Assembly: GCF_008642355.1 (NCBI RefSeq) | Contig: NZ_CP029193.1 | Span: 7,216,001-7,280,000, forward strand | Origin: Streptomyces venezuelae | Lineage (GTDB): Bacteria > Actinomycetota > Actinomycetes > Streptomycetales > Streptomycetaceae | DNA: 64,000 bases | Reading direction: 5' to 3' | Part shown: piece after piece, positions 18,498-30,614 of the stretch | How positions within the stretch are numbered: the stretch's first letter is position 1 | How the letters are laid out: the number at the start of each line of letters is the position of its first letter | Position numbers and translations under genes: made by a program | Notes under the pieces: model-generated | Databases searched by the model: none | What the model saw: only the letters and a program-made list of their open reading frames with translations | What the model was told of the DNA's origin: nothing

Positions 18498-19481
18498 TCA
18501 TCCGCGGCGCGCCTCCGGGTGATGCAGACACCATCCCGCCCACGCCGACTCGACCATCTCGCGCACCCCGAGCCGGGCCCTCCAGCCGAGCTCCGCCGCC
18601 GCGAGACGCGCGTCGGCCACGGCACGCGGCGAGTCGCCCGCGCGGGCCGGCTCGACGAGCGCGGGACGCGGGTCACCGCTCACCTCACCGATGACGGTGA
18701 TCAGTTCGCGCACGGAAACACCCTCCCCCCGGCCGATGTTCACCGTCAGATCGCCCGCGGCGCCCTCCGCGAGCCTGCGTGCCGCCGCCAGGTGGGCCTC
18801 GGCGAGGTCGGAGACGTGGACGTAGTCACGGATGCAGGTGCCGTCCGGCGTCGGGTGCGTGTCGCCGAAGATGCGCGGCGACTCGTCGCGGCGCAGCCGG
18901 TCGAAGACCATCGGGATCACGTTGAAGACCCCGGTGTCCGCGAGCTCGGGCGCCGCGGCGCCCGCCACGTTGAAGTAGCGCAGGCACACCGTCCCTATGC
19001 CGTGCGCCCGCCCGGCCGCCCGCACCAGCCACTCCCCGGCGAGCTTCGTCTCGCCGTAGGGGCTGACCGGGACGCACGGCGTGTCCTCGCCCACGAGCTC
19101 CGCGTCCGGCGGATTGCCGTACACCGCGGCCGACGAGGAGAACACGAAGCGCTTGATGCCGGCCTCGGCCACCGCTTCGAGCAGCGTCGTGAGGCCGCCC
19201 ACGTTCTCCCGGTAGTAGCGCAGCGGCTGCTCCACCGACTCCCCGACCTGCTTGCGGGCCGCGAGATGCACCACACCGGTGACGCCGTACTCGGCGAAGA
19301 CCCGGCGCAGCAGCTCCCCGTCCAGCGAGGAGCCCTTCACGAGGGGCATGTCCGCGGGCAGCCGCTGCGGGACACCCGACGAGACGTCGTCCAGGACGAC
19401 GACGTCCTCCCCGGCACCGGCCATGACCCGCGCCACATGTGCCCCGATGTAACCCGCTCCGCCTGTGATCAGCCATGTCAT
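18498..19481 (-). CDS. galE: UDP-glucose 4-epimerase
   Basis: 327 aa extended SDR. NAD-binding GGAGYIG at the N-terminus, catalytic Ser in SSSAAVYG, YxxxK in SPYGETKLAGE, and the RYFNVAGA motif are all present, as in GalE. It interconverts UDP-glucose and UDP-galactose. The ATG at 19481 opens the Rossmann domain; an extension to 19595 is Cys/Arg-rich and rejected. It lies divergent to the CDP-alcohol/teichoic-like operon, so it may feed UDP-galactose to the GT2 enzyme of that operon, although that is only positional inference. Confidence 0.9.
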   Translation of the reverse strand: MTWLITGGAGYIGAHVARVMAGAGEDVVVLDDVSSGVPQRLPADMPLVKGSSLDGELLRRVFAEYGVTGVVHLAARKQVGESVEQPLRYYRENVGGLTTLLEAVAEAGIKRFVFSSSAAVYGNPPDAELVGEDTPCVPVSPYGETKLAGEWLVRAAGRAHGIGTVCLRYFNVAGAAAPELADTGVFNVIPMVFDRLRRDESPRIFGDTHPTPDGTCIRDYVHVSDLAEAHLAAARRLAEGAAGDLTVNIGRGEGVSVRELITVIGEVSGDPRPALVEPARAGDSPRAVADARLAAAELGWRARLGVREMVESAWAGWCLHHPEARRG

Positions 19482-19787
19482 GGGCGCCCACCCTAAGCGA
19501 CCCTCCGGGCGCAGCCCCGCACGCACGGGCATGTGACCGTCAATCGGGCAAGCCGGGCACCGGCAGCCGCGCGGTTTGTGGGCGCGGCCCCCCATCCACC
19601 ATGATGATCGCGAAGGCCGAGGCCCTCGCAGGCCCCTCTTATCGGGGCGTGAACGGGTGATGAACGCCCGCTTCCCATCATCCGATAGCCTCAGCCGACG
19701 TGCCGCCCGGCCGCCATGGGCCCGGGGGCGCTCCCCTTACGCATGTGCCCGGCGCAAGCCGCGCCGGTACTCAAGGAGTGAGTTCGT
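19482..19787. other. Divergent intergenic region between galE and the CDP-alcohol operon
   Basis: 306 bases without a gene. It must hold the promoters of both transcription units. Seen: TAGCCT (19686-19691) as a possible plus-strand -10 without a convincing -35; an inverted repeat GGTGATG...CATCATCC around 19656-19682; and the ribosome binding site AAGGAG at 19773-19778 serving the CTG start at 19788. Confidence 0.6.
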
Positions 19788-21593
19788 CTGTCGACCGCCA
19801 TCCTCACCGGACAGCCGGTCCCCGGGTCGCCGCTCGAAGGCGATCTGCGGTCCCTCGGCTTCGACGTGCGGGTCGCCTCCGACGCGGCGGACGCCGAGTC
19901 GCTGCTCGCGGCCGTGCCCGCCGACCAGCGGGTCGCGGTCGTCGACGCACGCTTCGTCGGACATGTCCACGCGCTGCGCCTCGGCCTCACCGACCCCCGC
20001 TTCGCCGCCTCCGCGGTGCCCGGCGCCGTCGCGGCCAAGCCCGAGGCCCGCACGGAGCTGACGCGCGCGCTGCGGACGACCGCCGCCACCACGGGCGGCG
20101 TCGTCACCCACGACGCGCTCCCCGACGACATCGCCGCGGCCATGGAGTCCGGTGCGACGGACGTCCACCGCCCCGACCTCGGCACGCTCGTCGCCACCGT
20201 CCCCGACGACCCGCAGGCGCGGAACGAGGCACGCCAGGCCGTCGCCGCCGTCGACGACGAGGCCGTACGCCTGCGCACCGCGGTGAAGTCGCGGGACGGC
20301 TTCTTCACGACGTACTGCATCTCCCCGTACTCGCGCTACATCGCCCGCTGGTGCGCCCGCCGCGGCCTCACCCCGAACCAGGTCACCACCGCCTCGCTGC
20401 TCACCGCCCTGATCGCGGCGGGCTGCGCGGCGACCGGGACGCGCGGCGGCTTCGTCGCCGCCGGTGTACTGCTGCTCCTCTCCTTTGTCCTGGACTGCAC
20501 GGACGGGCAGCTCGCCCGCTACTCCCTGCAGTACTCGACGCTCGGCGCCTGGCTCGACGCGACGTTCGACCGCGCCAAGGAGTACGCGTACTACGCGGGC
20601 CTCGCGCTCGGCGCGGCCAACGCGAACAGCGACGACGTGTGGGCGCTGGCCCTCGGCGCCATGGTCCTCCAGACCTGCCGCCACGTCGTCGACTTCTCCT
20701 TCAACGAGGCGAACCACGACGCCACCGCCAACACCAGCCCCACGGCGGCCCTTTCGGACAAGCTCGACAGCGTCGGGTGGACGGTCTGGGTGCGCCGGAT
20801 GATAGTGCTGCCCATCGGCGAGCGCTGGGCGATGATCGCCGTGCTCACCGCGGTCACCACCCCGCGCATCACCCTCGTCGTCCTCATCATCGGCTGCGCC
20901 CTCGCCGCCTGTTACACGACCGCCGGACGCGTCCTGCGCTCGCTGACCCGCAAGGCCACCCGCACCGACCGCGCCGCCCAGGCACTGAGCGACCTCGCCG
21001 ACAACGGCACGCTCGCCTCCTCCTTCACCGCCCTCGGCCGCCGCGGGCGCTTCCTGCCCGCACCCGTGCTCGCCTTCGTCGGCGGCGCCGCGATCGTGGC
21101 GGTCGCCGCGTTCACCTCGTACGGCAGCCCGTGGGTCGTCGTCGCCGCGGTCGTGTACGTGGTCCTGTCCGGCCTCGCCCTCGCGCGGCCGCTCAAGGCC
21201 CCCCTGGACTGGCTGGTCCCGCCGTTCTTCCGCGCCGCCGAGTACGGCACGGTCCTGGTCCTCGCGGCCAAGGCCGACGTGAACGGGGCGCTGCCCGCGG
21301 CTTTCGGGCTGGTGTCGGCGGTCGCCTACCATCACTACGACACGGTGTACCGCATCAAGGGCGGCGCCGGTGCGCCCCCGCGCCGGCTGGTGCGGGCGAT
21401 CGGCGGCCAAGAAGGCAGGACCCTCGTGGTCGCGCTGGCCGCCACCCTGCTGTCCACCACTGATTTCACCGTCGCGCTCACGGCACTTGCCGTGGCCGTG
21501 GCACTCGTGGTGCTCGTCGAGAGCATCCGCTTCTGGGTCGCCGCCGAGAAAAAGGGCGCACCCGCCGTACACGATGAAGGAGAACCCGCATGA
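19788..21593 (+). CDS. CDP-alcohol phosphotransferase with DUF5941-type C-terminal region (CTG start)
   Basis: 601 aa. The CDP-alcohol phosphotransferase motif D-x2-DG-x2-AR-x8-G-x3-D-x3-D is complete in LDCTDGQLARYSLQYSTLG followed by AWLDATFD (about residues 230-262), so the enzyme should displace CMP from a CDP-alcohol onto another alcohol at the membrane. Residues 1-150 form a soluble domain of unknown role. Residues 170-600 are largely membrane helices, the last part resembling DUF5941. Start: the frame is closed by a TGA at 19779, AAGGAG (19773-19778) lies nine bases before CTG 19788, and the sequence between CTG and the next GTG (19866) reads as conserved protein, so CTG is the likely initiator. 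It overlaps the next gene by four bases. Confidence 0.85.
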   Translation: MSTAILTGQPVPGSPLEGDLRSLGFDVRVASDAADAESLLAAVPADQRVAVVDARFVGHVHALRLGLTDPRFAASAVPGAVAAKPEARTELTRALRTTAATTGGVVTHDALPDDIAAAMESGATDVHRPDLGTLVATVPDDPQARNEARQAVAAVDDEAVRLRTAVKSRDGFFTTYCISPYSRYIARWCARRGLTPNQVTTASLLTALIAAGCAATGTRGGFVAAGVLLLLSFVLDCTDGQLARYSLQYSTLGAWLDATFDRAKEYAYYAGLALGAANANSDDVWALALGAMVLQTCRHVVDFSFNEANHDATANTSPTAALSDKLDSVGWTVWVRRMIVLPIGERWAMIAVLTAVTTPRITLVVLIIGCALAACYTTAGRVLRSLTRKATRTDRAAQALSDLADNGTLASSFTALGRRGRFLPAPVLAFVGGAAIVAVAAFTSYGSPWVVVAAVVYVVLSGLALARPLKAPLDWLVPPFFRAAEYGTVLVLAAKADVNGALPAAFGLVSAVAYHHYDTVYRIKGGAGAPPRRLVRAIGGQEGRTLVVALAATLLSTTDFTVALTALAVAVALVVLVESIRFWVAAEKKGAPAVHDEGEPA

Positions 21594-22327
21594 TCGGCCT
21601 CGTCCTTGCGGCAGGCGCCGGACGGCGTCTGCGTCCCTACACGGACACCCTGCCCAAGGCCCTGGTGCCCGTCGATGGTGACACCACCATCCTCGACCTG
21701 ACGCTCGGCAACTTCGCCGAGATCGGTCTCACCGAGGTCGCGATCATCGTCGGCTACAAGAAGGAGGCCGTCTACGAGCGCAAGGCGGCCCTGGAGGCGA
21801 AGTACGGCCTCAAGCTGACCCTGATCGACAATGACAAGGCCGAGGAGTGGAACAACGCCTACTCCCTGTGGTGCGGGCGTGACGCCATCAAGCACGACGT
21901 GATCCTCGCCAACGGCGACACCGTGCACCCTGTCTCCGTCGAGAAGACGCTGCTCGCCGCCCGCGGCAACGGCCAGAAGATCATCCTCGCCCTCGACACG
22001 GTGAAGCAGCTCGCCGACGAGGAGATGAAGGTCATCGTCGACGACGCCAAGGGCGTGCAGCGCATCACCAAGCTGATGGACCCCTCCGAGGCCACCGGTG
22101 AGTACATCGGCGTCACCCTCATCGAGGGCTCCGCAGCCGACGAGCTCGCCGACGCCCTGAAGACGACCTTCGAGCGCGACCCCGACCTCTACTACGAGGA
22201 CGGCTACCAGGAGCTCGTCAACCGCGGCTTCAAGGTCGACGTGGCCCCGATCGGCGACGTCAAGTGGGTCGAGATCGACAACCACGACGACCTCGCCAAG
22301 GGCCGGGAGATCGCGTGCCAGTACTGA
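21590..22327 (+). CDS. Sugar/polyol-phosphate nucleotidyltransferase (cytidylyltransferase-like)
   Basis: 245 aa NTP transferase. The N-terminal signature LAAGAGRRLRPYT...LPKALVPV, NNAYSLWCGRD, and the metal-binding ANGDT are seen. The NNxYSL motif is typical of phosphocholine cytidylyltransferase (LicC) and inositol-1-phosphate cytidylyltransferase relatives, so CTP is the likely nucleotide and a phosphorylated alcohol the acceptor. The ATG overlaps the previous stop (ATGA), and the next gene starts inside its 3' end, so translation is coupled. Inferred role: to make the CDP-alcohol used by the two phosphotransferases in this operon. The exact substrate is unknown. Confidence 0.83.
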   Translation: MIGLVLAAGAGRRLRPYTDTLPKALVPVDGDTTILDLTLGNFAEIGLTEVAIIVGYKKEAVYERKAALEAKYGLKLTLIDNDKAEEWNNAYSLWCGRDAIKHDVILANGDTVHPVSVEKTLLAARGNGQKIILALDTVKQLADEEMKVIVDDAKGVQRITKLMDPSEATGEYIGVTLIEGSAADELADALKTTFERDPDLYYEDGYQELVNRGFKVDVAPIGDVKWVEIDNHDDLAKGREIACQY

Positions 22328-23382
22328 CGAGGCTCATCCCCTCGCCGGTCGTCGTCGACATCCGGCCGGGGGCGCTCGACGACCTGGCCGGTGTCCTCGC
22401 CGACCAGCGGATCTGCTCGTCGACCGGCAAGCTCGCCATCGCCATCAGCGGCGGCTCGGGTGCGGTGCTCCGCGAGCGGCTGATGCCGTCGCTGGGCGGC
22501 GCGGAGTGGTTCGAGGTCGGCGGCGGCACGCTCGACGACGCCATCAAGCTCGGCGAGGACATCCGCAAGTCGGGCCGGTACGACGCGGTCGTCGGCCTCG
22601 GCGGCGGCAAGATCATCGACTGTGCCAAGTTCGCCGCGGCGCGCGTGGGCCTGCCGCTGGTCGCCGTCGCGACGAACCTGTCGCACGACGGCCTCTGCTC
22701 GCCGGTCGCGACGCTCGACAACGACGCGGGCCGCGGCTCGTACGGCGTGCCGAACCCCATCGCGGTCGTCATCGACCTCGATGTGATCCGTGAGGCGCCC
22801 GTCCGTTTCGTCCGCTCCGGCATCGGCGACGCGCTGTCCAACATCTCCGCCATCCGGGACTGGGAGCTCGCCGCCCGCGAGCGCGGCGAGGACATCGACG
22901 GCCTCGCGGCCGCCATGGCCCGCCAGGCCGGCGAGGCCGTGCTCCGCCACCCCGGCGGCGTCGGCGACGACGGCTTCCTCCAGGTCCTGGCCGAGGGCCT
23001 GGTCCTCACCGGCATCGCCATGTCGATCTCGGGCGACTCCCGCCCGGCGTCCGGCGCCTGCCACGAGATCAACCACGCCTTCGACCTCCTCTTCCCCAAG
23101 CGCGCCGCCAGCCACGGCGAGCAGTGCGGCCTGGGCGCGGCCTTCGCGATGCACCTGCGCGGTGCCCGCGAGGAGTCGGCGTTCATGGCGCAGGTGCTGC
23201 GCCGCCACGGCCTGCCCGTGCTGCCGGAGGAGATCGGCTTCACCGTGGACGAGTTCGTGAAGGTCGTGGAGTTCGCTCCGCAGACCCGCCCGGGCCGCTA
23301 CACGATCCTCGAACACCTCGACCTGTCCACCGACCAGATCAGGGACGCATACGCCGACTATGCAAAAGCCATCGGTAGCTGA
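22315..23382 (+). CDS. Iron-containing alcohol dehydrogenase family, glycerol-1-phosphate dehydrogenase-like
   Basis: 355 aa, GTG start overlapping the previous gene by 13 bases. The NAD(P)-binding GGG motif (VVGLGGGKIIDCAKFAA) is followed by the metal ligands expected for G1PDH/AraM: Asp in NLSHDGLCSP, His in SGACHEINHAFD and His in ASHGEQCG. This family reduces dihydroxyacetone phosphate to sn-glycerol-1-phosphate, and relatives reduce other phosphoketoses. Next to a cytidylyltransferase and CDP-alcohol phosphotransferases, it probably makes the polyol phosphate that is activated with CTP. No heptaprenylglyceryl-phosphate synthase (PcrB) is present here, so the archaeal-ether-lipid-like route of Bacillus is not supported. 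Confidence 0.82.
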   Translation: MPVLTRLIPSPVVVDIRPGALDDLAGVLADQRICSSTGKLAIAISGGSGAVLRERLMPSLGGAEWFEVGGGTLDDAIKLGEDIRKSGRYDAVVGLGGGKIIDCAKFAAARVGLPLVAVATNLSHDGLCSPVATLDNDAGRGSYGVPNPIAVVIDLDVIREAPVRFVRSGIGDALSNISAIRDWELAARERGEDIDGLAAAMARQAGEAVLRHPGGVGDDGFLQVLAEGLVLTGIAMSISGDSRPASGACHEINHAFDLLFPKRAASHGEQCGLGAAFAMHLRGAREESAFMAQVLRRHGLPVLPEEIGFTVDEFVKVVEFAPQTRPGRYTILEHLDLSTDQIRDAYADYAKAIGS

Positions 23383-24139
23383 GCTCCGCCCGGTTGTTCA
23401 CCCCCCGGGGGTGAAGGACCGGCGCAGCGGCGAACACTGGGCCGGCCGGCTCTACATGCGCGAGGTCTCCCTGCGCATCGACCGGCACCTGGTGAACACG
23501 CGGGTCACGCCCAACCAGCTGACCTACGTGATGACCGTCGCCGGCGCCCTCGCCGCCCCGGCGCTGCTGGTGCCCGGCGTCACGGGCGCCGTGCTCGGCG
23601 TGGTCGCGGTCCAGCTCTACCTGCTGCTCGACTGCGTGGACGGCGAGATCGCCCGCTGGAAGAAGCAGTACTCGATGGCCGGGGTCTACCTGGACCGGGT
23701 CGCCGCCTACCTGTGCGACGCCGCAGTCCTGGTCGGCTTCGGCCTGCGCGCCGCGGACATATGGGGCTCGGGACGCATCGACTGGCTGTGGGCCTTCCTC
23801 GGCACCCTGGCCGCGCTCGGCGCGATCCTGATCAAGGCCGAGACCGACCTCGTCGGCGTCGCCCGGCACCAGACGGGCAAGGAGCCGGTCAAGGAGTCGG
23901 CGGCCGAGCCGCGCTCCTCGGGCATGGCACTGGCCCGCAGGGCCGCCGCCGCGCTGAAGTTCCACCGGCTCATCCTCGGGGTCGAGGCGTCCCTGCTGAT
24001 CCTCGTCATCGCGTTCGTCGACCAGGCGCGCGGCGACCTGTTCTTCTCGCGCCTCGGCGTGGCGGTCCTCGCGGGCATCGCGATGCTGCAGACCCTGCTC
24101 CACCTCGTGTCCATCCTCGTATCGAGCAGGTTGAAGTGA
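23360..24139 (+). CDS. CDP-alcohol phosphotransferase family protein, last motif Asp replaced
   Basis: 259 aa, about five or six membrane helices. The motif DCVDGEIARWKKQYSMAG then VYLDRVAA shows the first three aspartates, but the final Asp of G-x3-D-x3-D is Ala (the position is aligned by exact spacing). In characterised family members that last Asp acts as the catalytic base, so this protein may use another base, a different chemistry, or be a non-catalytic partner of the first phosphotransferase. The start overlaps the dehydrogenase by 23 bases, and the stop overlaps the glycosyltransferase GTG. Two such genes in one operon suggest two successive transfer steps or a heteromeric enzyme. 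Confidence 0.8.
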   Translation: MQKPSVAELRPVVHPPGVKDRRSGEHWAGRLYMREVSLRIDRHLVNTRVTPNQLTYVMTVAGALAAPALLVPGVTGAVLGVVAVQLYLLLDCVDGEIARWKKQYSMAGVYLDRVAAYLCDAAVLVGFGLRAADIWGSGRIDWLWAFLGTLAALGAILIKAETDLVGVARHQTGKEPVKESAAEPRSSGMALARRAAAALKFHRLILGVEASLLILVIAFVDQARGDLFFSRLGVAVLAGIAMLQTLLHLVSILVSSRLK

Positions 24140-25047
24140 ACACCCCGAGCACTCCGAGCCCTGCGGCGGAGAAGCTGAAGGTCGGCGCCGTCATCATCAC
24201 GATGGGCAACCGGCCCCAGGAGCTGCGTGCCCTCCTCGACTCGGTCGCCAAGCAGGAGGGCGACCCGGTCGAGGTGGTCGTGGTCGGCAACGGAGCCCCG
24301 GTGCCCGAGGTCCCCGAAGGTGTGCGCACCGTCGAGCTGCCGGAGAACCTCGGCATCCCCGGCGGCCGCAACGTCGGCATCGAGGCCTTCGGGCCCGGCG
24401 GCACCGACGTCGACATCCTGCTCTTCCTGGACGACGACGGCCTGCTCGCCACCCTGGACACGGCGCGGCTGTGCCGCGAGGCGTTCGCCGCCGACCCGGA
24501 GCTCGGCATCATCAGCTTCCGCATCGCCGACCCGGACACGGGGGAGACCCAGCGCCGCCACGTGCCGCGACTGCGGGCCTCCGACCCGATGCGCTCCTCG
24601 CGCGTGACGACCTTCCTCGGCGGCGCCAACGCCGTTCGCACGAAGGTCCTCGCCGAGGTCGGCGGGCTGCCCGGCGAGTTCTTCTACGCCCATGAGGAGA
24701 CGGACCTCGCCTGGCGCGCGCTCGACGCGGGCTGGATGATCGACTACCGCTCCGACATGGTCCTTTTCCACCCCACGACGGCCCCCTCGCGGCACGCGGT
24801 CTACCACCGGATGGTGGCCCGCAACCGCGTCTGGCTGGCCCGTCGCAACCTCCCCGCGCCGCTGGTCCCCGTCTACCTCGGGGTCTGGATGCTCCTCACC
24901 CTCGCCCGCCGCCCCTCGGGCCCGGCCCTCAAGGCCTGGTTCGGCGGCTTCAAGGAGGGCTGGACCACGCCCTGCGGGCCTCGCAGGCCCATGAAGTGGC
25001 GTACGGTGTGGCGGCTGACCCGACTGGGCCGACCTCCCGTCATCTGA
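24136..25047 (+). CDS. Family 2 glycosyltransferase
   Basis: 303 aa, GTG start in a GTGA overlap with the previous stop. GT-A fold signs: VGAVIITMGNRPQELRALLDSV at the N-terminus, NLGIPGGRNVGIEA, the metal-binding LLFLDDDG, and HEETDLAWRALDAGW (ED-type catalytic base region). Rhamnosyl-, galactosyl- and galactofuranosyl-transferases share this pattern. There is no obvious transmembrane helix except a hydrophobic patch near residue 245. It probably decorates or starts the polymer or lipid made by the operon, on the cytoplasmic side, before export by the adjacent ABC transporter. Confidence 0.87.
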   Translation: MNTPSTPSPAAEKLKVGAVIITMGNRPQELRALLDSVAKQEGDPVEVVVVGNGAPVPEVPEGVRTVELPENLGIPGGRNVGIEAFGPGGTDVDILLFLDDDGLLATLDTARLCREAFAADPELGIISFRIADPDTGETQRRHVPRLRASDPMRSSRVTTFLGGANAVRTKVLAEVGGLPGEFFYAHEETDLAWRALDAGWMIDYRSDMVLFHPTTAPSRHAVYHRMVARNRVWLARRNLPAPLVPVYLGVWMLLTLARRPSGPALKAWFGGFKEGWTTPCGPRRPMKWRTVWRLTRLGRPPVI

Positions 25048-25143
25048 CAAGCTCGGGTCTGAGAGCATTCGGGCCATACCCCGGTCCCTGGCCCACGCCT
25101 ACGCCCGACCGGCTGCGCTTTTCGAAGACGAAAGTTTCCACTC

Positions 25144-26091
25144 GTGAGTGAGACAACGCATGACGGCGGAGTCGCGGTGACAGCATCACCGTCGACTCCG
25201 TCGCCCGATGACGGGCTCTCCCGGGCCGAACTCGCCGCCAAGTACGGTCTGACCGTCAGCGGCGCCCGCCCCGGACTTTTCGAGTACGTCCGCCAGCTCT
25301 GGGGACGGCGCCACTTCATCCTCGCCTTCTCCCAGGCGAAGCTGACCGCCCAGTACAGCCAGGCCAAGCTCGGCCAGCTGTGGCAGGTGGCGACGCCGCT
25401 GCTGAACGCGGCGGTCTACTTCTTCATCTTCGGGCTGCTGCTCGGCGCCCGCGAGGGCATCCCGCACGAGATCTACGTGCCGTTCCTCGTGACGGGTGTC
25501 TTCGTCTTCACGTTCACGCAGAGCTCGGTCATGGCGGGCGTGCGGGCGATCTCCGGCAACCTCGGCCTCGTCAGGGCCCTGCACTTCCCGCGGGCCTCAC
25601 TGCCGATCTCCTTCGCGCTGCAGCAGCTCCAGCAGCTGCTCTTCTCGATGATCGTGCTCGTCGTGATCATGTGCGCGTTCGGCATCTTCCCCGCCGTGTC
25701 CTGGCTGCTCGTCCTGCCCGCGCTGGTCCTGCAGTTCGTCTTCAACATGGGCCTGGCGCTGATCTTCGCCCGGATGGGCAGCAAGACGCCCGACCTGGCG
25801 CAGCTCATGCCGTTCGTGATGCGGACCTGGATGTACGCCTCGGGCGTCATGTTCAGCATCCCCGCGATGCTCGCGACCAAGAAGGACGTGCCCGCCTGGG
25901 TCGGGGACGTGCTCCAGTGGAATCCGGCCTCCATCTACATGGACCTGATCCGCTTCGCCATGATCGACAAGTACGACTCCTCGTACCTGCCCCCGCACGT
26001 GTGGGCCTTCGCGGTCGGCTGGGCCGTGGTGATCGGCGCGGTCGGGTTCGTGTACTTCTGGAAGGCGGAGGAGCGGTACGGCCGTGGCTGA
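25144..26091 (+). CDS. ABC-2 type polysaccharide/teichoic acid export permease (TagG-like)
   Basis: 315 aa, GTG start. A hydrophilic N-terminus of about 60 residues precedes six membrane helices in ABC-2 arrangement (beginning around QLWQVATPLLNAAVYFFIFGLLL). The LGQLWQ...NAAVYFFIFG region is typical of TagG/RfbA permeases that export undecaprenyl- or lipid-linked polymers. Its last eight bases overlap the ATPase gene, so the pair forms one exporter. A 96-base gap separates it from the glycosyltransferase and could hold a secondary promoter. The substrate is inferred from the operon. Confidence 0.87.
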   Translation: MSETTHDGGVAVTASPSTPSPDDGLSRAELAAKYGLTVSGARPGLFEYVRQLWGRRHFILAFSQAKLTAQYSQAKLGQLWQVATPLLNAAVYFFIFGLLLGAREGIPHEIYVPFLVTGVFVFTFTQSSVMAGVRAISGNLGLVRALHFPRASLPISFALQQLQQLLFSMIVLVVIMCAFGIFPAVSWLLVLPALVLQFVFNMGLALIFARMGSKTPDLAQLMPFVMRTWMYASGVMFSIPAMLATKKDVPAWVGDVLQWNPASIYMDLIRFAMIDKYDSSYLPPHVWAFAVGWAVVIGAVGFVYFWKAEERYGRG

Positions 26092-26890
26092 CGACAAGAC
26101 CCCCGAGAAGGGCGACGCGAACGCCGGCAAGGGGCACATCCCCACCGTCATCGCCGACGAGCTGCACATCGTCTACCGAGTCAACGGCGCGAAGACGGGC
26201 AAGGGCAGCGCCACCTCCGCCCTGAGCCGCATGCTCAGGCGGGGCGAGGAGCGCGGGGTGCGCAAGGTGCACGCCGTGCGCGGCGTCAGCTTCACCGCCT
26301 ACCGCGGCGAGGCCATCGGCCTCATCGGCTCCAACGGTTCCGGCAAGTCGACCCTGCTCCGCGCCATCGCAGGCCTGCTCCCCGCCGAGAAGGGCAAGGT
26401 CTACACCGACGGCCAGCCCTCGCTGCTCGGCGTCAACGCGGCCCTGATGAACGACCTGACGGGCGAGCGCAACGTCATCCTCGGCGGGCTCGCGATGGGC
26501 ATGTCCCGCGAGCAGATCCGGGAGCGCTACCAGGAGATCGTCGACTTCTCCGGCATCAATGAGAAGGGTGACTTCATCACCCTTCCGATGCGCACGTACT
26601 CCTCCGGCATGGCGGCCCGCCTCCGTTTCTCCATCGCGGCCGCCAAGGACCACGACGTCCTGATGATCGACGAGGCCCTGGCCACCGGCGACCGCAAGTT
26701 CCAGAAGCGCTCCGAGGCCCGCATCCGCGAGCTCCGCAAGGAGGCCGGCACGGTCTTCCTGGTCAGCCACAACAACAAGTCGATCCGCGACACGTGCGAC
26801 CGCGTGCTGTGGCTGGAGCGCGGCGAGCTGCGCATGGACGGGCCGACCGACGAGGTCATAAAGGAGTACGAGAAGTTCACCGGCAAGTAG
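26084..26890 (+). CDS. ABC transporter ATPase, teichoic acid/polysaccharide export type (TagH-like)
   Basis: 268 aa, GTG start inside the permease gene. Walker A GSNGSGKST, the short signature YSSGMAARLRFSIA and Walker B VLMIDEALATGD are those of TagH/RfbB-type exporters. An insert around residues 35-60 (GSATSALSRMLRRGEERG) before the first strand is also typical. There is no extra C-terminal carbohydrate-binding domain, as found in Wzt proteins. A strong hairpin follows, so this is the last gene of the operon beginning at 19788. Confidence 0.9.
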   Translation: MADDKTPEKGDANAGKGHIPTVIADELHIVYRVNGAKTGKGSATSALSRMLRRGEERGVRKVHAVRGVSFTAYRGEAIGLIGSNGSGKSTLLRAIAGLLPAEKGKVYTDGQPSLLGVNAALMNDLTGERNVILGGLAMGMSREQIRERYQEIVDFSGINEKGDFITLPMRTYSSGMAARLRFSIAAAKDHDVLMIDEALATGDRKFQKRSEARIRELRKEAGTVFLVSHNNKSIRDTCDRVLWLERGELRMDGPTDEVIKEYEKFTGK

Positions 26891-26926
26891 CTCGATCGAG
26901 CCACGGGGGAACACCCGTTCGGTAAT

Positions 26927-26959
26927 AGTGCCCCGCCGGGACGAGCCCGGCGGGGCACT
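26927..26959 (+). terminator. Strong hairpin terminator closing the export operon
   Basis: Perfect 14-bp stem (AGTGCCCCGCCGGG at 26927-26940 with its complement at 26946-26959) and a 5-base loop. It separates the CDP-alcohol/export operon from the hopanoid operon. Confidence 0.85.
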
Positions 26960-27077
26960 GTCGTGACATGGTGTCCCCGGGGCCACTCGGCCCCCTCAAC
27001 TCACCGTCGGCGAAGGAAGGTTGACGCCAATCGGTGTGTTGTTGTGATGCGCCGAACACCCCGACGATGCGTGTTGG

Positions 27078-27100: not shown

Positions 27101-27236
27101 GTGCTGATTCGCGGCAAGTGGGGCGATATCGCGCGGTGCCCCGCCTCGGAGCACGGCCCACCTCGGAGCGAACCGGGCGGCGTGTCCGAAATAGGATGTA
27201 TTGGGTCGGCAGTGTAGAACGGGAGATGTGACGGCA

Positions 27237-28133
27237 ATGGCTACGGACGATCTCCAGCTCCGCGATGCTTCCGCCGTCCTCGCCAAGGCCGCGGACGAGA
27301 ACTTTCCCGTCGCGCCCTTCTTCCTTCCCCGCGCCTGGCGCGACGACCTCATGGCCGTCTACGGCGTCGTCCGCCTCATCGACGACATCGGCGACGGCGA
27401 CTTGGCCCCCGGCGCCGGCCACGCCCGCCACCTCGGGCTCGACGCCGACACGGACGACCCGCTGCCTCTCCTCGACGCTGTCGCCGCCGACCTGGACAAG
27501 GTCTTCACCGGCGCCCAGCCCGGCCACCCGCTCGTACGGGCGCTGCGGCCGGCCGCCGAACGCGGCACCCTCACAGCCGCCCCCTTCCTGGCCCTGATCG
27601 AGGCCAACCGCCAGGACCAGGCCATCACGCGCTACGAGACGTACGACGACCTCGTCGCGTACTGCGCGCTCTCCGCCAACCCCATCGGCCGCCTCGTCCT
27701 GGCCATCACGGGCACGGAGACCCCGGAGCGCGTCCGCCGCTCGGACGCCGTCTGCACCGGCCTGCAGATCGTCGAGCACATCCAGGACGTCGCCGAAGAC
27801 CTGCGGCGCGGCCGCATCTACCTGCCTGTCGAGGACATGAAGCGGTTCCACGTGAGTGAGTCAGATCTGGCCCTGCCGACAGCGGGCGCATCGGTGCGCG
27901 CCCTGGTCGCATTCGAAGTGGAACGCGCCCGCGGCCTGCTGAATGAAGGCACCCCCCTGGTGGGTAGCGTCCACGGCAGGCTGAAGCTGCTGCTGGCCGG
28001 GTTCGTGGCAGGGGGGAGGGCGGCCACCCGGGCGATCGCCGACGCCGGGTACGACGTCCTGCCCGGACCGCCGAAGCCGACCAAGCCGCGCCTGCTGCGC
28101 GAGACGGGTGCAGTTCTGCGAGGAGAGGGGTGA
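27237..28133 (+). CDS. hpnC: Squalene synthase HpnC (hydroxysqualene-forming)
   Basis: 298 aa, trans-isoprenyl diphosphate synthase of the squalene/phytoene synthase family. The two Asp-rich regions are VVRLIDDIGDGDLA (about residue 45) and VEHIQDVAEDLRRGRIYLP (about residue 180). In the three-enzyme bacterial route, HpnD makes presqualene diphosphate from two farnesyl diphosphates, HpnC converts it to hydroxysqualene, and HpnE reduces that to squalene. GGGAG lies 11 bases before the ATG at 27237; GTG 27228 is too close to it. First gene of the hopanoid operon; its stop overlaps the hpnD GTG. Confidence 0.9.
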   Translation: MATDDLQLRDASAVLAKAADENFPVAPFFLPRAWRDDLMAVYGVVRLIDDIGDGDLAPGAGHARHLGLDADTDDPLPLLDAVAADLDKVFTGAQPGHPLVRALRPAAERGTLTAAPFLALIEANRQDQAITRYETYDDLVAYCALSANPIGRLVLAITGTETPERVRRSDAVCTGLQIVEHIQDVAEDLRRGRIYLPVEDMKRFHVSESDLALPTAGASVRALVAFEVERARGLLNEGTPLVGSVHGRLKLLLAGFVAGGRAATRAIADAGYDVLPGPPKPTKPRLLRETGAVLRGEG

Positions 28134-29080
28134 GCCGGGCCGTGGAGTCGGATCCGCACGTATCCGCGTCGGTGCTCGCCGCGTACAGCTACTGCGAGGC
28201 CGTGACCGGCCGGCAGGCGCGCAACTTCGCGTACGGCATCAGGCTGCTGCCGACGCCCAAGCGCCGGGCCATGTCCGCGCTCTACGCCCTGTCCCGGCGG
28301 GTCGACGACATCGGCGACGGCGAGCTCGCCCTGGACGTCAAGGCGCAGCGGCTCGACGACACCCGCGCGCTGGTCGCACGGATCCGCACGGGCGAGGTGC
28401 ACGAGGACGACACCGACCCCGTGGCGGTCGCCCTCGCCCACGCCGCCGCGCACTTCCCCATCCCGCTGGAAGGCCTCGACGAACTCATCGACGGCGTCCT
28501 GAAGGACGTACGCGGTGAGACGTACGAGACGTGGGAGGACCTCAAGGTCTACTGCCGCTGCGTCGCCGGAGCCATCGGGCGGCTCTCACTCGGCGTGTTC
28601 GGCACCGAGCGGGGGGCGCTCCACGCGGAACGCGCGCCGGAGTATGCCGACACGCTCGGCCTCGCGCTCCAACTGACCAACATTCTCCGGGACGTTCGCG
28701 AGGACGCCCTCGACGGGCGGACCTATCTGCCCGCCGACGACCTCGCCAAGTTCGGCTGCTCCGCCGGCTTCGCCGGCTCCGAGCCGCCCGCCGGAGCCGA
28801 CTTCGCGGGCCTCGTCCACTTCGAGGTGCGCCGCGCGCGTGCCCTGTTCGCCGAGGGCTACCGCCTGCTGCCCATGCTGGACCGGCGCAGCGGCGCCTGC
28901 GTGGCCGCCATGGCCGGCATCTACCGCCGCCTCCTCGACCGCATCGAGCGCGAGCCGGAAGCGGTCCTGCGCGGCCGTGTCTCGCTCCCCGGGCGCGAGA
29001 AGGCGTACGTCGCCGTGCGCGGACTGTCCGGTCTCGACGCGCGGAACGTGTCACGACAGACCGTCCGGAGGCGTGTGTGA
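28130..29080 (+). CDS. hpnD: Presqualene diphosphate synthase HpnD
   Basis: 316 aa, squalene/phytoene synthase family. Asp motifs are ALSRRVDDIGDGEL (about residue 60) and LTNILRDVREDALDGRTYLP (about residue 185), with YCRCVAGAIG between them, as in presqualene/phytoene synthases. It condenses two farnesyl diphosphates head to head. The GTG start lies in a GTGA overlap with hpnC, and the stop overlaps a small coupled ORF (TGATG). Position next to hpnC and hpnE supports squalene rather than carotenoid synthesis. Confidence 0.92.
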   Translation: MSRAVESDPHVSASVLAAYSYCEAVTGRQARNFAYGIRLLPTPKRRAMSALYALSRRVDDIGDGELALDVKAQRLDDTRALVARIRTGEVHEDDTDPVAVALAHAAAHFPIPLEGLDELIDGVLKDVRGETYETWEDLKVYCRCVAGAIGRLSLGVFGTERGALHAERAPEYADTLGLALQLTNILRDVREDALDGRTYLPADDLAKFGCSAGFAGSEPPAGADFAGLVHFEVRRARALFAEGYRLLPMLDRRSGACVAAMAGIYRRLLDRIEREPEAVLRGRVSLPGREKAYVAVRGLSGLDARNVSRQTVRRRV

Positions 29081-29193
29081 TGCGCATCCGGAGTGATCGT
29101 GGGGCAGTTGGGACAACGTTCGCAAAGCGGCGGGCAACCCTCCGCTCCAAGGTCGCGTCCCAGACTGCAACGGCCGAAGGGGTGGGTGCATGA
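29080..29193 (+). CDS. 37-aa translationally coupled ORF between hpnD and hpnE (DUF6380-like)
   Basis: The ATG overlaps the hpnD stop by one base (TGATG), GGAGG lies eight bases upstream of it, and its TGA overlaps the hpnE ATG (ATGA). The frame therefore fits between the two genes exactly. The product is small and basic; its RATLRS...ASQTATA stretch resembles short Streptomyces proteins labelled DUF6380 that I recall from the same position. There is no membrane segment. It may be a coupling device for hpnE translation, a real microprotein, or both. Confidence 0.6.
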   Translation: MRIRSDRGAVGTTFAKRRATLRSKVASQTATAEGVGA

Positions 29194-30614
29194 CGAGGAA
29201 AGACATGCAGCCCGAGGGGCTGACCGAGGAAGCCGAAGGCCGCTCCGCAGGGGCGGCCGCCGTGGTGGTCGGCGGCGGCCTCGCGGGCGTCACCGCCGCG
29301 CTCGCGCTCGCCGACGCGGGCCTGCGCGTGACGCTGCTCGAAGGGCGGCCGCGGCTCGGCGGGCTCGCGTTCTCCTTCCAGCGCGGCGCGCTGACCGTCG
29401 ACAACGGCCAGCACGTCTATCTGCGCTGCTGCACCGCCTACCGCTGGTTCCTCGACCGCATCGACGGCGCACACCTCGCACCCGTGCAGGAACGTCTCGA
29501 CGTGCCCGTCCTCGACGCGGACCGCAACCGGCTCGGACGCCTCAGGCGCACCGCGCTTCCCGTGCCGCTGCACCTCGCGGCGAGCCTCGCCACCTATCCT
29601 CACCTGTCGGTCGCCGAGCGCGCCAAGGTGGGCCGCGCGGCGCTCGCCCTCAAGGGACTCGACCCGGCCGACCCCGTGCTCGACGGCCAGAACTTCGGCA
29701 GCTGGCTCGCCAGGAACGGTCAGTCCGCGCGCGCCATCGAGGCCCTCTGGGACCTCGTGGGCGTCGCGACGCTCAACGCCTGCGCGGGAGACGCCTCACT
29801 CGGGCTCGCCGCGATGGTGTTCAAGACCGGGCTGCTCTCCGAACCGGGCGCCGCCGACATCGGCTGGGCCCGGGTGCCCCTCGGCGATCTGCACGACACG
29901 CTGGCCCGCAAGGCGCTCGACGCAGCGGGAGTCCGTACGGAACTAAAGGCACGTGTCACCTCCATCTCCCGTACGGACAACGGTGGTTGGCGCGTGGAGG
30001 TTCCCGGCGAGACCATCGAGGCGGAAACCGTCGTGCTCGCCGTGCCGCAGCACGAGACGCACGATCTCCTGCCCGACGGCGCCCTCGACCGGCCCGACCG
30101 GCTGCTCGACATCGACACCGCGCCGATCCTCAACATCCACGTCGTGTACGACAGGAAGGTCCTGAAACGGCCCTTCTTCGCCGCCATCGGCACACCCGTG
30201 CAGTGGGTCTTCGACCGGACCGAGGCCTCCGGACTGACCGAGGGGCAGTACCTGGCGCTCTCGCAGTCGAACGCGCGGGACGAGATCGACGCGCCCGTCG
30301 CGGCCCTGCGAGAGCGCTATCTGCCGGAGCTTGAGCGGCTGCTGCCCGCGGCGCACGGCGCCGAGGTGCGGGACTTCTTCGTCACCCGCGAGCGCACCGC
30401 GACCTTCGCGCCCACCCCCGGCGTCGGCAGGCTCCGCCCCGGTGCCCGCACCAAGGCCCGCGGCCTGTACCTCGCGGGCGCGTGGACCGCCACCGGGTGG
30501 CCCGCGACCATGGAGGGTGCCGTACGCAGCGGCATCAGCGCGGCCGAAGCCGCCCTCTCCGCCCTCGACCGCCCCCGTGATCACCTCTTCGCATTCGAGG
30601 AGGCGGCGGCGTGA
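29190..30614 (+). CDS. hpnE: Hydroxysqualene dehydroxylase HpnE
   Basis: 474 aa flavoprotein of the amine-oxidase/phytoene-desaturase fold. The FAD-binding GGGLAGVTAALALADAG (about residues 30-46) is followed by LLEGRPRLGGLAFSF, and a C-terminal GLYLAGAWTATGWPATMEGAVRSG closes the FAD site. HpnE reductively removes the hydroxyl of hydroxysqualene to give squalene. The ATG is preceded by a GA-rich stretch and overlaps the preceding small ORF. The stop overlaps an in-frame GTG that opens the next frame. Confidence 0.9.
   Translation: MTRKDMQPEGLTEEAEGRSAGAAAVVVGGGLAGVTAALALADAGLRVTLLEGRPRLGGLAFSFQRGALTVDNGQHVYLRCCTAYRWFLDRIDGAHLAPVQERLDVPVLDADRNRLGRLRRTALPVPLHLAASLATYPHLSVAERAKVGRAALALKGLDPADPVLDGQNFGSWLARNGQSARAIEALWDLVGVATLNACAGDASLGLAAMVFKTGLLSEPGAADIGWARVPLGDLHDTLARKALDAAGVRTELKARVTSISRTDNGGWRVEVPGETIEAETVVLAVPQHETHDLLPDGALDRPDRLLDIDTAPILNIHVVYDRKVLKRPFFAAIGTPVQWVFDRTEASGLTEGQYLALSQSNARDEIDAPVAALRERYLPELERLLPAAHGAEVRDFFVTRERTATFAPTPGVGRLRPGARTKARGLYLAGAWTATGWPATMEGAVRSGISAAEAALSALDRPRDHLFAFEEAAA

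Follow-up and report, generated by a model that had tools for sequence, protein, structure and literature searches.

In Bacillus subtilis, the wall teichoic acid (WTA) is described as a polymer of sn-glycerol-3-phosphate and the lipoteichoic acid as one of sn-glycerol-1-phosphate (PMC7086022). A 2026 synteny paper reports araM, tagG, tagH and crtB as syntenic with clusters of cytidine diphosphate (CDP)-alcohol transferase, GT2 glycosyltransferase and nucleotidyltransferase genes, tying this neighbourhood to teichoic acid biosynthesis and secondary metabolism and, in the part of its text available, assigning no steps (PMC13118837), and an alignment of EgsA/AraM glycerol-1-phosphate dehydrogenases (G1PDH) in an earlier phylogenetic study already contains a Streptomyces homologue (PMC5059525). 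The subject here is a seven-gene operon, g1 to g7, lying in a 64,000-nt window (the whole stretch of DNA that was analysed) of contig NZ_CP029193.1 of Streptomyces venezuelae (GCF_008642355.1; genome of 8.0 Mb in one contig). The preferred reading, with a probability of about 0.48, is that this operon supplies the precursor, primes the chain and exports it in a WTA pathway of actinobacteria, making it a concrete candidate for how teichoic acids are made and started without recognised TagD or TagA. The open-licence literature searched, on the gene set, on DUF5941 (with no paper listed), on Streptomyces CDP-glycerol routes and on linkage units, listed no functional study of the operon, in line with the preliminary description of this DNA, which knew of no characterised pathway with exactly this gene set. 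The seven tightly spaced or overlapping genes listed there are all present as open reading frames (ORFs) on the plus strand, in the same positions and order:

19788..21593, plus strand: g1, CDP-alcohol phosphotransferase with C-terminal DUF5941 (PF01066 CDP-OH_P_transf, 37 bits, cut-off 22; PF19365, 313 bits)
21590..22327, plus strand: g2, LicC/IPCT-type nucleotidyltransferase, probable cytidine triphosphate (CTP):polyol-phosphate cytidylyltransferase (PF00483 NTP_transferase, 55 bits)
22315..23382, plus strand: g3, G1PDH-like (EgsA/AraM-like) iron-type alcohol dehydrogenase (PF13685 Fe-ADH_2, 95 bits)
23360..24139, plus strand: g4, CDP-alcohol phosphotransferase-like membrane protein with Ala at the fourth signature Asp (PF01066, 35 bits, cut-off 22)
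24136..25047, plus strand: g5, GT2 glycosyltransferase (PF00535 Glycos_transf_2, 39 bits)
25144..26091, plus strand: g6, TagG/Wzm-type ABC exporter permease (PF01061 ABC2_membrane, 44 bits)
26084..26890, plus strand: g7, TagH/Wzt-type ABC exporter ATPase (ABC_tran, 71 bits)

Neighbouring genes overlap by 4 to 23 bases (g1/g2 by 4, g2/g3 by 13 with an assumed GTG start at 22315, g3/g4 by 23, g4/g5 by 4 and g6/g7 by 8), the one gap, of 96 bases, separating g5 from g6, and the Pfam matches agree with the families first assigned to all seven genes. Under the preferred reading, g3 would convert dihydroxyacetone phosphate to sn-glycerol-1-phosphate and g2 would combine this with CTP to give CDP-glycerol, the two together replacing TagD. 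The products of g1, with its ordinary signature, g4, with its variant one, and g5 would take over from TagA and TagB in building or priming a polyprenyl-linked starter. The chain would be extended from the same CDP-glycerol by TagF-family enzymes whose genes lie elsewhere in the genome, and g6-g7 would export it in its lipid-linked form. All substrates, the enantiomer, the division of work among g1, g4 and g5, and the final polymer are predictions.

The window's genome encodes seven PF04464 (TagB/F-family) hits, all in one region (C1:3.17-3.21 Mb). In the same genome TagD (TIGR01518) gave 0 hits and 0 candidates even at E 0.001, with the control matched in 12 of 14 named genomes, and TagA (PF03808) gave 0 matches among 17 candidates, with the control matched in 7 of 14. 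The three IspD-family hits comprise a strong IspD, a GlmU-like protein with hexapeptide repeats and a MobA-like protein, and judged from these hits no TarI is recognised there. It is suggestive that, among the families searched, seven polyol-phosphate transferases have no recognised CDP-polyol source except g2. The exporter shows kinship to the same region: g6 is 69% identical to the permease and g7 81% to the ATPase of the PF04464 cluster, which also contains a relative (67%) of the galE gene next to the operon, and g7 scores 183 bits against TagH PRK13546, under the curated cut-off of 320. Against NCBIfam, g5 gives sub-cut-off matches only, e.g. MftF, EpsD and GlfT1. As a separate observation, the loci taken from this part of the genome (L185 and L186, 3.168-3.208 Mb) hold a large cluster in which TagF-family, GT2 and exporter genes occur; among its products, those of 518, 288 and 543 residues have no Pfam match at 1e-5.

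A survey of 394 genomes of the same class extends this picture. Orthologues of g3 (E<=1e-60) occur in 100 genomes, 40 of them in the window's genus, and none of the 20 listed zero-match genomes (of 294) belongs to that genus. PF04464, found in 157 genomes overall, accompanies g3 in 94 of 100 cases versus 63 of the 294 genomes lacking g3, with 6 genomes having g3 alone and 231 having neither; outside the window's genus the share is 55 of 60. Fisher tests on the co-occurrence return very small p-values, for trials that are not independent, the genomes being related. TagD-like proteins of at least 109 bits are present in 30 genomes, the curated cut-off of 165 being passed in only 4 of the 394, and never occur together with g3; the 157 PF04464 genomes thus divide into 94 with g3, 21 with TagD, 0 with both and 42 with neither.

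The idea that the CDP-alcohol enzymes build the chain instead of TagB/F-type transferases, put forward in the preliminary description, is probably wrong, given the seven PF04464 hits and the co-occurrence in 94 of 100 genomes. The enzymes apparently replaced are TagD and TagA, and possibly TagB in its priming step. The broader proposal, an exported CDP-alcohol-derived polymer or phosphoglycolipid, keeps its teichoic-type export, and the comparative evidence points to WTA; a teichoic-type wall polymer is the probable product. The lipid side of that proposal would have g1 and g4 transfer head groups to a lipid, g5 glycosylate it and g6-g7 flip it, giving a phosphoglycolipid or a lipoteichoic-type anchor. 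Many CDP-alcohol phosphotransferases act on lipids, Rhodothermus has a CDP-inositol-dependent lipid route, and the operon holds just one glycosyltransferase; set against the TagGH/TagF type of the exporter and neighbours and the high PF04464 share beside g3, such a product is improbable. Most consequentially for the WTA reading, we infer that TagD is replaced by the G1PDH-plus-LicC-type pair. Confidence that g2-g3 form the CDP-polyol source is moderate, because the exclusion of TagD depends on the score limit.

The g2 protein is, as first described, LicC/IPCT-like, and specifically of the phospho-alcohol cytidylyltransferase type, with 1jyk LicC (3e-13) and 4jd0 (9e-9) as its best PDB matches, followed by 7whr and, in fourth place, 6pd1 (5e-7), which we take to be the phosphonate enzyme PntC. 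Entry 4jd0 is given as a Thermotoga inositol-phosphate cytidylyltransferase (PMC12275187). The signature LAAGxGxRLxPxTxxxPK and the NGDTxHP and N(N/A)YS motifs are jointly present in 130 of 143 rows, the other 13 of which may be mis-started, partial or distant ORFs. A cytidylyltransferase of phospho-alcohol type is the probable identity of g2, its use of CTP being predicted.

The G1PDH-like call for g3 held up, with 229 bits against PRK00843 (G1PDH), a lead of 140 bits over the next family at 89. Its top PDB row is 3ce9, annotated as a glycerol dehydrogenase, followed by four G1PDH rows (4rgq, 4rfl, 5fb3 and 9h4x); the G1PDH structures 4rgq and 4rfl match at 5e-41, and G1PDH-type motifs are kept in the 4rgq alignment. 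Residues D168, H246, H250 and H263 (numbering from 22327) are retained in at least 156 of 158 rows, and the Asp/His/His site D168, H246 and H263, presumably the metal ligands, lines up with 4rgq. Judged from these similarities, dihydroxyacetone phosphate is the likeliest g3 substrate, and the chance that the polyol supplied by g2-g3 is sn-1 glycerol is put slightly short of even. A PcrB ether-lipid route for glycerol-1-phosphate was considered and rejected: PcrB gave 0 matches among 11 candidates in the window's genome (control matched in 7 of 14 genomes), so glycerol-1-phosphate would not feed the known bacterial ether-lipid route. If true, the sn-1 route would explain a G1PDH-like gene in a bacterium without the PcrB ether-lipid pathway, and the WTA would be the mirror image of the one in Bacillus. 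The wider proposition, that many actinobacteria carry a mirror-image teichoic acid built from the sn-1 ('archaeal') enantiomer and primed by a CDP-alcohol transferase pair in which g4 lacks the catalytic Asp, is unlikely as a whole, at somewhat under one chance in three by our reckoning.

The most solid new fact is that g4 belongs to a clade lacking the fourth signature aspartate. By a published account, eight residues are absolutely conserved in CDP-alcohol phosphotransferases, and the fourth Asp is the likely base in catalysis; exchanging it for Asn almost abolished the activity of a PIP synthase from a mycobacterium (PMC4634129). Both g1 and g4 match PF01066, and to that extent the two CDP-alcohol phosphotransferases of the preliminary description are confirmed; the absence of the proposed catalytic base from g4 means that two ordinary CDP-alcohol transferases cannot be assumed. 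Of 80 genus-level loci, 70 have Ala at this position and 10 have His, and the 137 distinct orthologues from all fetched loci have Ala in 93 cases, His in 44 and Asp in 0, versus Asp in 117 of 117 lower-scoring CDP-alcohol transferase rows of the same loci (30-150 bits, not deduplicated) that served as a control. The residue four positions further on is always acidic (Asp 94, Glu 43), and the other seven signature residues, D91, D94, G95, A98, R99, G108 and D112, are invariant in 22 rows. In a 49-row tree, midpoint-rooted and with long branches, the Asp-less proteins form one clade (support 97/96), and a single Asp loss suffices in 98% of 200 bootstrap trees; His occurs in nearly all g4 branches, Ala inside Streptomyces and once outside.

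That g4 is a mere dead partner of g1 was considered and is less likely. In L171 (3214-4113, minus strand) and L172 (11841-12707, minus strand), the g1 counterparts align with the g1 CDP-alcohol domain at 31-33% identity and have lost the signature residues, and the His-type g4, keeping seven of the eight residues, is the sole motif-bearing protein of the locus; in L209 and L210, g4 occurs without any g1 called. L171 and L172 favour the view that g4 is an enzyme with an alternative base, perhaps the acidic residue that is conserved a turn further along; the argument applies to the His type rather than to the Ala type of Streptomyces. The clade is a natural experiment on how strongly catalysis by CDP-alcohol phosphotransferases relies on the fourth aspartate. 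Priming by g1, g4 and g5, the step in which this protein would act, is a tentative assignment, with odds somewhat below even.

The partner protein g1 carries the full signature DxxDGxxAR-x8-GxxxDxxxD (eight residues) in 78 of 78 genus-level loci. It appears to start at the rare codon CTG (19788), nine bases past AAGGAG, an in-frame TGA beginning 9 bases before the CTG; a CTG followed by (S/P)TAI, with an upstream sequence resembling a ribosome-binding site, recurs in 58 of 78 g1 loci, with no candidate in 15 and another CTG in 5. No family was assigned to the N-terminal domain of about 165 residues, for which 1 of 17 members matches NTP_transf_3 at 0.00096 and the profile's best PDB sequence matches at E 0.35. 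By PDB comparison g1 and g4 match AF2299 (g4 at 9e-13) and the DIPP synthase structure 4mnd; AF2299 has an NTP-transferase-like N-terminal domain, a feature that g1 may or may not share. DUF5941, present in 13 of 296 genomes of a phylum sample, is encoded by an ORF of its own immediately after the g1 counterpart in L131, L133, L169-L172, L176, L181, L183 and L194, and its W-xx-P, EY and H-xx-D residues are invariant in these stand-alone ORFs. Its interpretation as a decayed second CDP-alcohol domain found no support, the profile comparison with g4 giving a probability of 0.6%. The likeness of g1 and g4 to AF2299 and 4mnd, together with matches of g1, g2 and g4 to the IPCT/DIPPS model NF041135 (50-52 bits each), also bears on a quite different product, a compatible solute of the di-myo-inositol-phosphate or diglycerol-phosphate type made by g2 and a CDP-alcohol transferase. 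These scores fall far under the NF041135 cut-off of 580, the operon also encodes an exporter and a glycosyltransferase, and relatives have TagF-family genes nearby; a solute is highly improbable.

The arrangement of the genes was assessed in 80 genus-level loci, the best 80 of 514 confirmed relatives of the g3 query (77 titled Streptomyces), a set picked via g3, in which g3 presence is hence no test, and with several loci cut by contig ends. Genes g2, g3, g4 and g5 are present in 80 of 80, g1 in 78, g6 in 75 and g7 in 72; g1-g5 are contiguous and in unbroken order in 78, and the 4-base g1/g2 overlap is kept in 78 of 78. A genome search for the gene set, proposed in the preliminary description, found g1-g7 unbroken in 70 of the 80 loci. 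This seven-gene arrangement is not due to chance. The best g3 relative in a public collection comes from Streptomyces atriruber and is 100% identical. In loci from outside the genus, the core consists of g1, g2, g3, g4 and g5, with the exporter present or not and DUF5941 often in its own ORF.

Several of the observations set out in this and the two following paragraphs weigh against the preferred reading. The TagD limit was chosen post hoc at the score gap from 109 to 86 bits, the co-occurrence is uncorrected for descent, and the mutual exclusion of g3 and TagD chiefly reflects their lying mostly in different families, with overlap only in family f7, which has 3 g3 genomes. At E<=1e-12, TIGR01518 matches 76 of 394 genomes, including 20 of the 100 g3 genomes (51-68 bits), and 19 of these 20 lie in the window's genus, i.e. 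19 of its 40 genomes. Of four weak TagD-like proteins from these 20 genomes that were scanned, one is HldE-like; the other three reach 63-68 bits against TagD and 61-76 against the adenylyltransferase domain of HldE, short of the cut-off in each case. These may be neither enzyme, yet the weak matches could include distant TagD proteins in half of the genus. In addition, PF04464 occurs in 42 genomes that have no g3 and no TagD, and is missing from 6 of the g3 genomes.

The operon also comes apart in places. A g4 profile search of 80 chosen genomes, counting a strong hit at 249 bits or more, found g4 in 52 of 61 g3 genomes (G513 and 60 from outside the genus), in 2 of the 9 TagD genomes chosen out of 30, and in 4 of the 10 chosen out of the 42 PF04464 genomes with neither source. 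Since g4 is missing from 9 of the 61 and yet occurs in some of the sourceless genomes, g2-g3 and g4-g5 are separable; and because g4 occurs with g3, with TagD and with neither, it seems to track teichoic machinery rather than one CDP-glycerol source. Catalysis by g1 is, on the reading of its sequence, dispensable in some loci, because the L171 and L172 counterparts lost the CDP-alcohol signature. Separability invites the explanation that g2-g3 only feed TagF elsewhere, with g1, g4 and g5 decorating finished chains or making an unrelated glycopolymer. It accords with L192 (G352, with no g4 in the genome), in which g2, g3, TagG, TagH, a GT2-PF04464 protein and a GT4 protein share one strand, and with g4-g5 in genomes without a g3 hit. 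The unbroken g1-g5 order in 78 of 80 loci and the occurrence of these genes together in several distant lineages make it unlikely, as does the proximity of g4 without g3 to PF04464 genes: in L209, L210 and L212, none with a g3 hit, a PF04464 protein (28, 37 and 84 bits; cut-off 22) lies less than 2 kb from g4 (L209 and L212 also have a called g5), and in L211 (G428, no g3 hit) g5-g4-g1-TagH-TagG lie opposite a Stealth protein and a PF04464 protein. Like L192 and L211, other neighbourhoods physically link genes of the operon to teichoic genes, which counts in favour of the preferred reading. L184 (G337) reads g2-g3-TagG-TagH-g1-g4-g5 with a convergent, adjoining GT2-PF04464 protein; in L136 (G204) a DUF5941-type g1 lies between TagGH and a GT2-PF04464 protein; and in L177 (G325) a TagF-like gene (763 residues, coinciding with a PF04464 hit) lies 4.4 kb from g3-g2-g1.

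The remaining adverse points concern substrates and wall chemistry. The g3 score of 229 bits is below the curated PRK00843 cut-off of 413. CpgD, of the same broad cytidylyltransferase family as g2, is reported to have rejected glycerol-1-phosphate, which warns against assuming this substrate for g2 (PMC12275187). For streptomycete walls, the polymer reported is mainly teichulosonic acid, free of phosphate (PMC11481543), and the WTA of S. griseus is reported as poly(ribitol phosphate) in the main, plus some glycerol phosphate that is terminal and 3-linked (PMC13274773). Because of this ribitol-rich WTA, the role of glycerol phosphate in S. griseus may be confined to that of a primer or cap, or g3 may make another polyol phosphate. 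In the latter case the operon would keep its role, with g3 reducing another phosphoketose, e.g. D-ribulose 5-phosphate, and g2 yielding CDP-ribitol or a mixture; the mainly ribitol phosphate WTA reported for S. antibioticus as well as S. griseus (PMC13274773), the lack of a recognised TarI-type protein in the window's genome and the second g2-g3 or g3 copies in G403, G433 and G539 are in keeping with this. It is nevertheless about as unlikely as decoration by g1, g4 and g5, considering the 229 bits of g3 for G1PDH versus 89 for the next family, the motifs kept in the 4rgq alignment, and the fact that strong TagD-like proteins, TagD being a glycerol enzyme, never occur beside g3.

Second g2-g3 copies were observed in some Streptomyces at L191 (6753-8569) and L193 (8802-10603), with g3 alone called at L190 (14379-15410). 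The L193 copy lies between rne and rplU-rpmA-obg by Pfam, and L191 and L190 look alike in gene order. In G403 and G539, TagF genes lie close to the second g3 copy; this was considered as evidence and set aside as weak, the site of these copies looking like the rne-rplU-rpmA-obg locus, whose genes are Pfam-named in G433; in G403 only rne is so named, the rest being judged from size and order. A diverged pair of g3-like and g2-like genes (36-42% and 25-28% identity) occurs in other contexts in L138 and L139, possibly as another CDP-polyol system.

The surroundings of the operon contain the following features:

18498-19595, minus strand: galE-type UDP-glucose 4-epimerase, divergent and upstream of the operon (308 bits, cut-off 262)
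26925..26961, plus strand: 16-bp GC-rich hairpin between g7 and hpnC, from folding of a 91-nt stretch
27201-30614: hpnC, hpnD and hpnE, downstream of the operon, all exceeding their NCBIfam cut-offs

The 91-nt stretch folds at -50 kcal/mol (z -4.8), with 0 of 200 shuffles as good, and the hairpin went unreported by the terminator scan, which demands a T-run; it is the probable end of the operon. The galE gene lies upstream on the opposite strand in 64 of 80 genus-level loci and hpnC downstream in 63 of 80. A hopanoid link for the operon was rejected, as the strong hairpin splits g7 from hpnC and hpn queries are unmatched in annotated loci outside the genus, and the hpnC adjacency is treated as neighbourhood only.

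Comparison with described systems places the operon nearest to the WTA pathway of B. subtilis (TagO, TagA, TagB, TagD, TagF, TagGH), with which it shares a predicted CDP-polyol precursor, predicted cytoplasmic assembly, a TagGH-type exporter and PF04464 enzymes in its own genome; unlike that pathway, it has a G1PDH-like and LicC-type pair and membrane CDP-alcohol transferases, in a genome without a TagD or TagA hit. The AraM/PcrB route of Bacillus also uses a G1PDH-like enzyme, whereas the window's genome lacks PcrB and g3 sits with a cytidylyltransferase. IPCT/DIPPS and AF2299-type enzymes follow the same logic of cytidylyltransferase plus CDP-alcohol phosphotransferase, but the operon has separate genes, an additional dehydrogenase, a GT2 enzyme and an exporter, and a g4 without the fourth Asp. 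CpgD of Caulobacter is likewise a cytidylyltransferase of COG1213 type with a three-carbon CDP donor as its product, and 4JD0, the second PDB match of g2, is the structure nearest to it; CpgD differs in using phosphoglycerate to form CDP-glycerate and in serving the sphingolipid ceramide diphosphoglycerate (PMC12275187). The CDP-6-D-glucitol pathway of Campylobacter jejuni HS:5 resembles the operon by description, pairing a cytidylyltransferase with an NAD(P)H reductase to supply a CDP-polyol for a surface polymer, but places activation before reduction (PMC10918830). Among these systems, the operon is best filed as a variant of the WTA pathway with non-textbook supply and priming enzymes.

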